Below are positions 4,086-28,799 of a stretch of DNA of 39,190 bases, in pieces (positions within the stretch are counted from its first letter, which is position 1; each line of letters begins with the position of its first letter). The notes under the pieces are model-generated. The model worked only from the letters and a program-made list of their open reading frames with translations, did no database searches and had not been told where the DNA came from. This stretch comes from an uncultured bacterium. GTDB taxonomy: Bacteria; Bacillota_I; Bacilli_A; RF39; UBA660. A program made the translations under genes and the position numbers. The DNA lies in assembly GCA_946611605.1 (NCBI GenBank), contig CAMODU010000008.1:1-39190 (forward strand), given 5' to 3'.

Positions 4086-4116
4086 GAAATTGTAATAGTT
4101 ATTTATTACTAAAAAA

Positions 4117-4215
4117 AAGAGGTGAAGCCTACCGTAAGTGGCAACTAATAAAGAGGTGAAGCCTACCTTAAGTGGCAACTAATAAAGAGGTGAAGCCTAC
4201 CTTTAAGTGGCAACG
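4117..4215 (+). repeat. Three tandem 34-nt ToxI repeats
   Basis: Copies start at 4117, 4151 and 4185, an exact 34-nt period. Copies 1 and 2 differ only at one base (CCG versus CCT). Copy 3 has one extra T in the same place and diverges after CAAC. All variation falls in the predicted pseudoknot loop; both predicted helices are invariant. There are no unique spacers, so this is not a CRISPR array. Confidence 0.95.
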
Positions 4216-4223
4216 AAAAAAGT

Positions 4224-4258
4224 AGAATTAGGGTATATTACTCTAATTCTTTTATTTT
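4224..4258 (+). terminator. Intrinsic terminator between toxI and toxN
   Basis: An 11-bp stem (4224-4234 with 4240-4250, one G-U) with a 5-nt loop is followed by TTTATTTT. In known type III systems such a terminator lets the RNA antitoxin be made in excess of the toxin mRNA by partial read-through. Confidence 0.92.
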
Positions 4259-4330
4259 GCAAAAAAATGTTTGATATAATCATCTTGCTATGCTATATTT
4301 AAATTGTAATCATTCAAGGGGGAATATAAT

Positions 4331-4849
4331 ATGGATATTAAAGAATTTACAATTATTATAGTAAATCATGATTATTGTGATTATCTAAGAAGGTTTGATA
4401 ATAAAGTTTCATATAATTCTGGTTTGAAGAAATTAAGACCTTTTATAGGTGTATTATTCAAAATAGATAATATGGAGTATTATGCACCGTTATCTAGTCC
4501 CAAACCAAAACACATGAAATTACGTAATAACATGGATCTAATTAAGATTAAAAATGGTTTGTTGGGAGTAATTAATTTAAATAATATGATTCCGGTTACA
4601 AAGAATAATTATATATTGTTTGATATGGATAAAAGAAATAAGAGTTTAGATGAAATAAAACGAATAGTATTGATTAGAAAACAATTAAACTGGTTAAATA
4701 GTAAATCTGATATGATAATGGAAAAGGCGTTCACGCTTCATTTTAGATACTGCGAAAATCTTCTTCCTTCAGGAATTAAAGATAGATGTTGTAATTATCC
4801 ATTACTAGAAGAAAAATGTTTAGAATATAATAAAGAACTAAAGAAATAG
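4331..4849 (+). CDS. toxN: ToxN/AbiQ-family type III toxin endoribonuclease
   Basis: This 172-residue protein matches the ToxN family length and core motifs. FIGVLFKI (38-45) is followed by YYAPLSSPK (50-58), which corresponds to the known APLTSPK active-site loop; Ser55, Ser56 and Lys58 occupy the catalytic Thr/Ser/Lys positions. LLGVINLNNMIPV matches the family's GLINLKFMIPI block, and the C-terminal CNYPLLEEKCLEY matches CNFSLLEEKYRDF. ToxN cleaves cellular and phage mRNA and its own ToxI precursor, and is held inactive by ToxI. ATG 4331 follows AAGGGGGA at 4316-4323. An extended -10 (TGATATAAT, 4272-4280) could give extra toxin transcription. The catalytic Thr-to-Ser change is conservative. 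Confidence 0.95.
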   Translation: MDIKEFTIIIVNHDYCDYLRRFDNKVSYNSGLKKLRPFIGVLFKIDNMEYYAPLSSPKPKHMKLRNNMDLIKIKNGLLGVINLNNMIPVTKNNYILFDMDKRNKSLDEIKRIVLIRKQLNWLNSKSDMIMEKAFTLHFRYCENLLPSGIKDRCCNYPLLEEKCLEYNKELKK

Positions 4850-4908: not shown

Positions 4909-5439
4909 ATGCTTGAATATGATGAATTAACTGTTAAATTATATCAAGAAAATATTAATTGGATATATTCAATCATAAAGAAGTTAGATATCAAAGGAAT
5001 AGAGAAAAAAGAAAAGTTTATCGCTGATCCTTATATCTTTAATGAAATGATATCCTTAGGTTATTATTTTATGAATCTTTATGTAATAAGTAATATATCA
5101 TCTTATTCAACTGATGATAAAGATTTAATCATGACTTCAATTATAAAAGGAGCATCTACTTATAATCAATATAAATTAGAGGCTGTATATAAAAGAGGTA
5201 TTAACTTATCTAAGTTAGTTGAATCTTATAATTCAATAGTAAGAAAAACTAAAGCTTATTCTCCTAATGATGGTCTTAAGGCCAGAGTAGTAGCTGTAGA
5301 TGAAGTATATAGAAGAATATATGATAAGTTTAATAAACAACATTTTAATATTTTTATTAAAATATTCTTATCATCATATTTTGAATTTGAAAAACAAATA
5401 GAAGAAACTATAAATAATTATCTTAATAAGGACGTGTAA
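4909..5439 (+). CDS. Unrecognised helical protein
   Basis: This 176-residue protein has no signal peptide and no recognisable catalytic motif. It is rich in Lys, Tyr and Ile and probably mostly helical. A hydrophobic stretch near residues 47-63 (MISLGYYFMNLYVISNI) is too polar to be a confident membrane helix. The start ATG 4909 has a strong AGGAAGG at 4894-4900. It ends two bases before the next gene's ATG, so the two are probably co-expressed and may work together. It lies just outside the ToxIN terminator and I see no reason to link it to that system. Confidence 0.7.
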   Translation: MLEYDELTVKLYQENINWIYSIIKKLDIKGIEKKEKFIADPYIFNEMISLGYYFMNLYVISNISSYSTDDKDLIMTSIIKGASTYNQYKLEAVYKRGINLSKLVESYNSIVRKTKAYSPNDGLKARVVAVDEVYRRIYDKFNKQHFNIFIKIFLSSYFEFEKQIEETINNYLNKDV

Positions 5440-5441
5440 GA

Positions 5442-5912
5442 ATGGTAGATCAAAACAAGATAAATCAAGTATATGCTGCTATCATTGAAAATGGAATGGA
5501 TGCTTTCTCTGATAATGATCTAATTAAATTATTATCTATGCTTAATAAATATGAATTAGATGAAGCAGAGAATGTTGCATATGATAAATTCTATGATAAA
5601 TCTAAAAGTGATACAGTAGCATATCAACACAGCAAAAGAATTCAATCACTTATACCATTAGTAAAACTAATAATAAATGATAAGATGTATAAGATAAGAA
5701 CATCTAATATAATTGAATATATGAACGAATCATTACTTAGACATGAATATCAAGAGTTCTTAACTAAATGTGAAACTAATGAATTGATGGATATTAAATA
5801 TTATTTATCTAATAATGTTAATATGAGTGATGAGGTAAATATTAAAGCAACTAAGAAGTTAATATCAATTATTTTAAAAGAATTGAACTCTAGAGTAGGA
5901 AAATTTAATTAA
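5442..5912 (+). CDS. Unrecognised helical protein
   Basis: This 156-residue protein is predicted soluble and helical, and acidic in its first half (DNDLIKLLSMLNKYELDEAENVAYDKF). No family motif is recognised. ATG 5442 follows AAGGACG at about 5427. It is the second gene of a two-gene unit with 4909-5439. The promoter of the downstream RNA gene starts six bases after its stop codon. Confidence 0.7.
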   Translation: MVDQNKINQVYAAIIENGMDAFSDNDLIKLLSMLNKYELDEAENVAYDKFYDKSKSDTVAYQHSKRIQSLIPLVKLIINDKMYKIRTSNIIEYMNESLLRHEYQEFLTKCETNELMDIKYYLSNNVNMSDEVNIKATKKLISIILKELNSRVGKFN

Positions 5913-5917
5913 AAGTA

Positions 5918-5947
5918 TTGATATAATTTTACAAATTATTATATAAT
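5918..5947 (+). promoter_or_regulatory. Promoter of the 5954-6160 RNA
   Basis: TTGATA (5918-5923) and TATAAT (5942-5947) are 18 nt apart. The predicted start, near 5954, coincides with the 5' strand of the RNA's closing helix. Confidence 0.7.
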
Positions 5948-5953
5948 GTCATT

Positions 5954-6160
5954 GAGGGTAATACCTGGTGGGGAAAAGGTTGATATTTTAATACAACATT
6001 GAATTGACATAATATTTTCAACGATAAAAAACACACAATGAACTTAACAACAGATATTACAACATGATCATACATTATATATTGTTACAACAAGATTATA
6101 CAACAGATGAACATCGTGTTACCCTTTACAAAGACTTAAGTATTCTTAAGTCTTTTCTTT
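5954..6160 (+). ncRNA. Candidate structured small RNA of unknown family
   Basis: About 200 nt lie between a good promoter and a perfect terminator, with no convincing ORF. The 5' and 3' ends pair: GGGTAATAC (5956-5964) with GTGTTACCC (6116-6124), nine continuous pairs including one G-U, closing about 170 nt. Inside, GTTGA near 5980 can pair with TCAAC near 6018. The 3' half is rich in A and C and contains two related segments starting ACAACAGATATTACAAC and ACAACAAGATTATACAAC. I see no SRP, RNase P or tmRNA hallmark. A 6S-like regulator is possible from size and closing stem, but the 5'/3' halves do not obviously pair as 6S does. A 34-codon ORF (6064-6168) lacks a ribosome-binding site. Confidence 0.6.
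6132..6160 (+). terminator. Intrinsic terminator of the small RNA
   Basis: A perfect 9-bp stem AGACTTAAG/CTTAAGTCT (6132-6140 with 6145-6153) with loop TATT is followed by TTTCTTT. Confidence 0.92.
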
Positions 6161-6161
6161 A

Positions 6162-6190
6162 TTGCTAAATATATTTATATGTGTTATATT
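6162..6190 (+). promoter_or_regulatory. Promoter of the metG T-box unit
   Basis: TTGCTA (6162-6167) and TATATT (6185-6190) are 17 nt apart, with an upstream TGT extended -10. Confidence 0.6.
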
Positions 6191-6196
6191 ATTGTC

Positions 6197-6397
6197 GTTA
6201 AGCAGTGAAGGAAAGAAGCTAACAGAATAAGCTTTATTAGAGAGTCTGGTTAGGTGAAAGCAGATAAGTGGTAAAAGTTAGTCGAATGGGTCTGGAGTTT
6301 AAATCGTATATACGCGTTAAGTATTAAAGGTGATTTTATGATCATGAAGTAGGATGGTACCACGGGATTATCTCGTTCCTACATCATGGTCTTTTTT
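6197..6397 (+). promoter_or_regulatory. T-box riboswitch, Met specifier, controlling metG
   Basis: The T-box core ATGGTACCACGGG is at 6354-6366. The antiterminator forms from GTAGGA (6349-6354) with TCCTAC, and ACGGGA with TCTCGT, leaving the UGGUACC bulge. The putative specifier is AUG at 6286-6288 (GTCGAATGGGTCTGG), agreeing with metG downstream. A stem III-like ATAC...GTAT hairpin shares its loop CGTTAA with the valS leader. The last hairpin pairs GATCATGA (6340-6347) with TCATGGTC before TTTTTT, so the antiterminator appears nested inside the terminator, an odd geometry. Confidence 0.9.
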
Positions 6398-6418
6398 ATT
6401 TAGAAAGAGGGAATAAAA

Positions 6419-7975
6419 ATGGAAAAGTATTATATTTCTACAGCTATTGCTTATGCATCTGGTAAACCTCATATAGGAAATACTTATGAGATTGTATTAG
6501 CTGATGCAATAGCAAGAAACAAAAGATTAGAAGGATATGATGTATACTTACAAACTGGTACAGATGAACATGGTGAAAAGATTCAAAATAAAGCTAAGGA
6601 AAAAGGTATTACTCCTCAACAATATGTTGATGAAGCATCAGCTGAAATTAAAAGAATCTGGGATTTAATGAATACTACTTATGATAAGTTTGTTAGAACT
6701 ACAGATAAGGAACATGAAGAAATAGTTCAACATATATTCAAGAAGATGTATGAACAAGATGATATATATCTAGATAAATATGAAGGATGGTACTGTGTAC
6801 CTGATGAATCATTTTGGACTGAATCTCAAGTTGTTGAAAATGAAGATGGTGTTAAAGTTTGTCCTGACTGTGGAAGACCAGTTGAAAAGAAGAGTGAAGA
6901 ATCATATTTCTTTAGATTATCTAAATATCAAAAACAATTAGAAGAATATATTGAAACACATCCTGATTTCATTCAACCTGAATCTAGAAAGAATGAGATG
7001 TTAAATAATTTCATTAAACCAGGATTACAAGATTTATGTGTATCACGTACAGCATTTGATTGGGGTATTCCAGTAGACTTTGATCCTAAACATGTTGTAT
7101 ATGTTTGGTTAGATGCATTAACTAACTATATTACATTCTTAGGATATGATGTAGATGGTGGTAATGAGAACTTCAAGAAGTTCTGGCCTGCTGACTTACA
7201 TCTAATTGGTAAAGATATTATAAGATTTCATACTATTTATTGGCCATGTTTCTTATTTAGTTTAGGTATTGAATTACCTAAGAAAGTATTTGGACATCCA
7301 TGGCTAATCATGGCTGATGGAAAGATGAGTAAATCTTTAGGTAATGTTGTATATGCTGATGATTTAGTTGAAAAATATGGTGTAGATGCTGTTAGATATT
7401 ATTTCTTACATGAAATACCATTTACTAATGATGGAGTATTTACTGAAGATTTACTTATTGAAAGAATAAATGGTGATTTAGCTAATATCTTAGGTAACTT
7501 AGTTAATAGAACTATATCAATGAGTAATAAATATTTTGATGGAGTAGTTGAAAATACTAATGTAGAAGATATTATGGATAAACCATTAAAGGATTTAGCT
7601 ACATCATTAGGTGATAAGGTAAAGAATCATATGGATGAATTAAGAATTCAAGATGCAATAGATGATGTATTTGAATTATTAAGAGCATCTAATAAATATA
7701 TAGATGAAACGCTTCCTTGGGTTTTAGCTAAAGAAGAAGATAAACAAGATAGATTAAAAACAGTTTTATATAACTTAATTGAATCTATTAGAATAGCTGC
7801 AGTTTATCTACAAGCATTCTTACCTGAAACAGCAGAGAAGATATTCAATCAAATTAATACTGATTTAACTACATATGAATCAACTAAAGAATTTGGTGGA
7901 TATTTATCAGGAACTAAAGTAAATAATCCTGAAATATTATTTGCTAGAATAGATGTTAATAAAGATGATAAGTAA
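6419..7975 (+). CDS. metG: Methionyl-tRNA synthetase, short form
   Basis: This 518-residue class I synthetase charges both initiator and elongator tRNA-Met. HIGN is in GKPHIGNTYE (residues 15-24) and KMSKS in DGKMSKSLGN near residue 300. The connective-peptide knuckle shows CPDCGRP (about 151-157), but the preceding partner motif reads WYCVPDES, so only part of a four-Cys zinc site remains. It ends after the anticodon-binding helices and lacks the C-terminal Trbp111-like dimerisation domain that longer bacterial MetRS carry. ATG 6419 follows GAAAGAGGG. Expression depends on the Met T-box just upstream. Confidence 0.97.
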   Translation: MEKYYISTAIAYASGKPHIGNTYEIVLADAIARNKRLEGYDVYLQTGTDEHGEKIQNKAKEKGITPQQYVDEASAEIKRIWDLMNTTYDKFVRTTDKEHEEIVQHIFKKMYEQDDIYLDKYEGWYCVPDESFWTESQVVENEDGVKVCPDCGRPVEKKSEESYFFRLSKYQKQLEEYIETHPDFIQPESRKNEMLNNFIKPGLQDLCVSRTAFDWGIPVDFDPKHVVYVWLDALTNYITFLGYDVDGGNENFKKFWPADLHLIGKDIIRFHTIYWPCFLFSLGIELPKKVFGHPWLIMADGKMSKSLGNVVYADDLVEKYGVDAVRYYFLHEIPFTNDGVFTEDLLIERINGDLANILGNLVNRTISMSNKYFDGVVENTNVEDIMDKPLKDLATSLGDKVKNHMDELRIQDAIDDVFELLRASNKYIDETLPWVLAKEEDKQDRLKTVLYNLIESIRIAAVYLQAFLPETAEKIFNQINTDLTTYESTKEFGGYLSGTKVNNPEILFARIDVNKDDK

Positions 7976-28547: not shown

Positions 28548-28799
28548 ATGCACGAAGATTTAGTAAGATTTACTGAAAACTTAGTTAAATCACTTGTAGA
28601 AGACCCTGAAATGGTTAAAGTCCAAGAATTCTTAGGTGATGATGAAGTTATTCAATTAGAAATAATGGTAGAAGAAAGTGATATGGGAACTGTAATTGGA
28701 AGAGGTGGAAAGATGGCATCAGCTATCAGAACACTTGTACAAGCAGTTGCTTATAATCAAGGAATTTATAGAGTAAGAATTAATATTGATTCTTTTTAA
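28548..28799 (+). CDS. khpA: KH-domain RNA-binding protein KhpA
   Basis: This 83-residue protein is a single KH domain: VIGRGGKMASAIRTLVQAVA carries the GxxG loop (GRGG) that grips single-stranded RNA, preceded by VIQLEIMVEESDMG. The family (formerly YlqC) forms KhpA/KhpB complexes linked to cell elongation and translation in Firmicutes. It starts five bases after rpsP and has no clear ribosome site of its own beyond AATTAAG, so coupling to rpsP is likely. Confidence 0.94.
   Translation: MHEDLVRFTENLVKSLVEDPEMVKVQEFLGDDEVIQLEIMVEESDMGTVIGRGGKMASAIRTLVQAVAYNQGIYRVRINIDSF

Follow-up and report, generated by a model that had tools for sequence, protein, structure and literature searches.

In CsrB, many equivalent protein-binding sites are gathered in one small RNA in the form of GGA motifs for CsrA (PMC9037510), and the CrcZ RNA sequesters Hfq via ARN/AAnAAnAA motifs (PMC9037510, PMC5429807). 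For Gram-positive bacteria that are devoid of Hfq, proteins of the KhpA/KhpB type have been proposed as RNA chaperones (PMC9037510). The locus described here lies on the forward strand of a 39,190-nucleotide stretch of DNA (the window) from an uncultured bacterium of the RF39; UBA660 lineage of the Bacilli (genome G000, contig CAMODU010000008.1). With CrcZ/CrcY of Pseudomonas it shares the presence of several A-rich motif copies in one small RNA, with CsrB/RsmZ the proposed logic of many equivalent protein sites, with 6S RNA (RF00013) a similar length, a closing helix and predicted independent transcription, and with ToxI, the antitoxin of type III systems, tandem repeats within a small RNA. 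It departs from CrcZ/CrcY in its motif, CAACAGAWU at a spacing of about 12 nt, in giving no Rfam match, and in its host: the CrcZ type presupposes a genome that encodes Hfq, whereas Hfq was detected in none of the 11 genomes of the genus, in searches in which the controls were detected. From CsrB/RsmZ it differs in that its repeats are A/C-rich rather than GGA, again with no Rfam match.

The candidate small RNA gene occupies positions 5953–6160 of the window and is about 200 nt long, including its terminator. An earlier note on this DNA had placed here a stand-alone RNA gene of unrecognised family, framed by a TTGATA-18-TATAAT promoter and a perfect terminator, and direct reading of the letters over 5918–6160 agrees with that description. 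The sigma-70-type promoter (5918–5947, with TTGATA at 5918 and TATAAT at 5942–5947) has 11 of 12 matches and is the top site of the region, in which promoter-like sites as a class are not enriched over shuffled sequences (7 found against 5.1 expected). Its -10 region is nearly invariant across four species, being covered by TTATTATATAATGT, which is invariant in three of the homologues, and by TATAATATAATG in the fourth. At the other end, the intrinsic terminator (6130–6160) consists of a hairpin at 6130–6155 with a perfect 11-bp stem, and is the sole one found in the region, against 0.1 expected by chance. Across the four species, 97.8% of the cells of this hairpin are paired and 4 pairs have changes in both partners, a level of covariation that is reached by 7 of 500 column shuffles and is lost when the partner is slid.

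Immediately downstream lies the separate promoter of the metG T-box leader (6162–6190), whose TGTGNTATATTA-type element is also found in two members of the genus that lack the RNA (G010 and G006). The leader itself (6196–6383), a neighbour that is not part of the RNA, matches RF00230 with 73 bits (E 6e-16) against a gathering score of 93. Independent transcription of the RNA is indicated by its promoter and terminator, taken together with the separate T-box promoter that also occurs in RNA-less species. With promoter, terminator, the lack of a conserved open reading frame (ORF) and retention in relatives all found, the locus reads as an independent small RNA gene, and its status as a conserved transcription unit is well supported. 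In all four species the RNA is the immediate upstream neighbour of the metG T-box, which is also what would be seen if the RNA were a cis-acting leader or attenuator controlling metG along with the T-box, for example through read-through of the terminator. We consider such a role very improbable in view of the strong terminator followed by a promoter that RNA-less species have as well, and of the individual folds, in which no hairpin that could replace the terminator is conserved.

Searching 60 relatives at the DNA level recovered homologues in G004 (78%) and G005 (69%), and inspection of the sequence ahead of metG in the genus members added a diverged fourth copy in G007. All four sit directly before the metG T-box promoter, and upstream of the RNA, G000, G005 and G007 share a 156-aa gene whose family is unassigned; the contig of G004 starts at the RNA. 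The comparison of metG upstream regions that the earlier note had suggested has thereby brought out the same place and architecture in four species. No copy was found before metG in the other 7 of the 11 genus members (G010, G006, G008, G001, G002, G003 and G009).

With a covariance model trained on the four copies, these score 132–176 bits, and no other sequence in 40 relatives exceeds 26 bits; over 88 genomes of the family the best other score, 30 bits, falls on low-complexity ACAACA repeats at contig ends. The weak matches in G031, which consist of tandem ACAACA repeats at contig ends, were rejected, as were those in G087 and at C77 of G004, all of them being devoid of the closing helix P1 described below. 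Two of the G031 contigs (L089 and L091) end in near-identical tandem repeats of the ACAACA type, from about position 1500 onward, as if a single repeat array, variable or duplicated, had been assembled more than once. When 84,980 named species genomes were scanned with a two-block pattern, 11 records came back, three of which are G004, G005 and G007; the others were set aside as chance, the model giving them at most 17.6 bits or no match. Two viral contigs fit the two-block pattern but fail the covariance model, and a phage or plasmid origin was rejected, with only chance short matches recovered. In a tree of MetG the four RNA-bearing species form one clade with 100/100 support, which makes a single gain the simplest history; the RNA would thus be young, having been gained once in a subclade of the genus.

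The earlier note saw no convincing ORF in this stretch, and indeed none is conserved among the four species on either strand. That the stretch encodes a short protein, or is intergenic sequence in decay, might be read into the 34-aa ORF at 6064–6168, the tiny ORFs near the 5' end and the fast overall divergence. However, ORFs of at least 20 aa vary in both place and length among the species, the sense strand of G007 contains none at all, and the promoter, the terminator, both P1 arms and the motif blocks have been retained while the rest diverges, so that we regard this explanation as improbable. The identity of the RNA, at 44–72% with gaps counted, is not above that of fourfold-degenerate sites of metG (61–77%), which implies that constraint is confined to blocks. 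Outside these the RNA evolves fast, as many regulatory RNAs do.

Comparisons with known families covered the 4227 families of Rfam, at the gathering level for the whole window and at a relaxed threshold for the local stretch. At the relaxed threshold the RNA locus gave no useful match, the local stretch yielding the metG T-box and chance matches, and in the three homologue loci, too, nothing beyond their T-boxes and chance matches came up. The 6S family (RF00013) has no match at 5850–6430 up to an E of 10, nor in the three homologue loci up to an E of 5; ARAGORN called no tRNA or tmRNA, and no described relative of this RNA was found in the literature. SRP RNA, RNase P RNA and tmRNA, the signatures of which the earlier note had reported as lacking, were rejected on the strength of the Rfam and ARAGORN results. 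The proposal of an unrecognised family has thus withstood the Rfam check, 6S included, in the window and in the three homologues, and the gene has kept its place in four species.

Descent from a housekeeping RNA, 6S above all but also SRP RNA, RNase P RNA or tmRNA, would agree with the length of about 200 nt and the closing helix, and a diverged 6S copy also with the lack of any other 6S match in G000 and G004. In a 6S search of 31 relatives with a cut-off of 46.4 bits, however, a separate 6S-like match was seen elsewhere in G005 (37.7 bits) and G007 (36 bits), below the cut-off and with E values of about 2e-6 to 5e-6, and none was seen in RNA-bearing G000 and G004 or in RNA-less G006 and G010. 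As a 6S-like match accompanies the RNA in G005 and G007 and neither was seen in G006 and G010, the RNA is no substitute for 6S. Its interior is open, unlike the long imperfect duplex of 6S, and as it was not found in 7 of the 11 genus members it does not qualify as an essential housekeeping RNA. Together with the Rfam results, this makes a housekeeping origin extremely improbable. From the sequence comparisons, we take the locus to be a real, unannotated and clade-specific small RNA gene, which appears known in kind, as an intergenic small RNA, and new as a family.

In the minimum-energy fold the RNA is closed by P1, a helix of 11 bp between 5954–5964 (GAGGGUAAUAC) and 6116–6126 (GUGUUACCCUU), followed by the terminator; a closing helix had been predicted with nine pairs, of which the helix is upheld and the length revised. 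The duplex of the first and last 24 nt of the G000 RNA (-18.7 kcal/mol) is matched by none of 2000 dinucleotide shuffles, and P1 beats such shuffles in each of the four species, with 0, 0, 7 and 2 of 2000 reaching the observed value. The arms GAGGGUAAUAC/GUGUUACCCUU are common to G000 and G004. In a hand alignment the P1 of G007 reads AGGG[G]AU[A]ACAC/GUGUAU[G]CCCU and differs from that of G000 by a swap of the two central pairs, A-U and U-A, on both arms and by a change of U-G to C-G, which is covariation under that alignment. The automatic alignment contains 1 pair changed on both sides, a level reached by 124 of 500 shuffles; with covariation weak there, the main support for P1 is that it occurs in each of the four species. 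In the search for covarying helices that the earlier note had proposed, the terminator hairpin thus covaries, and P1 does so weakly in the automatic alignment.

The fold of the whole RNA is moderately better than that of shuffled sequences (z = -2.1), and the mean unpaired probability of its repeat array is 0.59–0.75. The earlier description of the RNA as structured accordingly holds for its ends, namely P1 and the terminator, and not for the interior, which is weakly folded and contains a mostly single-stranded array. The letters of a possible P2 hairpin, GUUGA (5979–5983) with UCAAC (6018–6022), are found in all four species; its predicted pair probability is 0.60 in G000, 0.80 in G004, about 0 in G005 and 0.01 in G007, and in G005 a different UCAAC pairs in place of the P2 partner. 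P2 is accordingly not established.

Two sequence features mark the interior. The first is a purine-rich stretch (5969–5989) with the block GGUUGAUA (5978–5985), which is invariant in all four species though identity over the entire RNA is no more than 44–72%. The second is an A/C-rich array (6047–6115) of repeats of about 12 nt, CAACAGAWUNNA, with 5–6 copies per RNA; those of G000 start at 6048, 6060, about 6073 (a degenerate copy), 6088, 6101 and 6112. The intervals between C(A/G)NC starts are 12/28/13/11 in G000, 12/27/13/12 in G004, 12/12/13/12/11 in G005 and 12/10/3/12/12/11 in G007, where 10+3 spans one unit. Averaged over the four species, 12 is the best period among those from 5 to 26 and is reached by 9 of 3000 shuffles, a figure that is too optimistic because the sequences are related and is to be read as indicative rather than as a true probability; in no single sequence taken alone is the 12-nt repeat significant. 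The imperfect 28-nt internal duplication of the earlier note does exist, TTACAACATGATCATACA at 6057 and TTACAACAAGATTATACA at 6085 being identical at 16 of 18 positions with a spacing of 28, and is better read as part of this array, the spacing corresponding to one 13-nt and one 15-nt step. Multiple copies of one short motif, the mark of sponge-type RNAs, are hence found with a 12-nt period over the four species.

An open array enclosed by a helix of the two ends would suit the display of several equal binding sites on one RNA. We favour, while giving it only an even chance of being right, a trans-acting small RNA of about 200 nt that is independently transcribed and whose array offers multiple protein or antisense sites. 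P1 and the terminator hairpin would protect its ends, and the interior, which carries GGUUGAUA, would expose the mostly single-stranded array of 5–6 CAACAGAWUNNA copies at a spacing of about 12 nt. Most probably acting in trans as a regulatory RNA, it might use the repeats as equivalent sites for an RNA-binding protein, as a sponge or scaffold in the logic of CsrB or CrcZ, or as repeated antisense seeds; it is this sponge or antisense step that we infer by analogy.

The main rival is a base-pairing antisense small RNA, in which the repeats or GGUUGAUA would be seeds for trans-encoded mRNAs and no protein would be titrated. It draws on the fact that GGUUGAUA is the single invariant block and that the interior is largely open, and in low-GC Gram-positives small RNAs often pair without Hfq. 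Nevertheless, a BLAST-level search of the RNA's own genome for long complementarity gave only terminator-like matches, and a single seed would need no repeat array that keeps register; we judge this alternative to be somewhat unlikely.

To return to the favoured trans-acting RNA with an array of equivalent sites, KH domains of the KhpA/KhpB type are found in all 11 genomes of the genus. With Hfq not detected there, KH proteins of this type are the only partner class that was checked and found, and are no more than a first candidate. A more specific version, which we hold to be unlikely, would place the RNA in a new class in Bacilli where Hfq is not detected: a terminally clamped RNA whose 12-nt CAACAGAWU array loads, and so titrates, several copies of an RNA-binding protein, be it of the KH type (KhpA/KhpB) or another, and which is a Gram-positive counterpart of CsrB/CrcZ that arose recently in one clade. 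On the comparative evidence the locus is a small RNA gene that is well delimited and lineage-born; its gain can be placed clearly on the tree, its repeated motif is simple, and its hosts are uncultured gut or rumen Bacilli with reduced genomes and no detected Hfq. Should the repeats bind a protein, it could provide an entry point to Hfq-free post-transcriptional regulation and a case of how small RNA genes arise.

Tandem repeats of a different kind occur 1.1 kb upstream of the RNA, in a type III toxin-antitoxin locus (4113–4849) where three ToxI-type repeats of 34 nt and a terminator-like stretch stand ahead of the ToxN gene (PF13958, E 3e-43); this locus is missing at the same place in G005. 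ToxI RNAs are defined by repeats of at least about 34 nt directly upstream of a ToxN-type gene, whereas the repeats of the candidate RNA measure about 12 nt, its next gene is metG with a T-box, and in G005 it has no adjacent toxin gene. At 4909–5912 the window contains adjacent 176-aa and 156-aa genes with no Pfam match, and the same pair is found upstream of the RNA in G005. A KhpA-type KH protein (PF13083) is encoded at 28569–28787. Finally, the sole gathering-level Rfam match in the window is a second T-box leader, at 582–781, which precedes an HD-domain gene and a gene for an 844-aa protein resembling class I aminoacyl-tRNA synthetases, putatively valS by reading.
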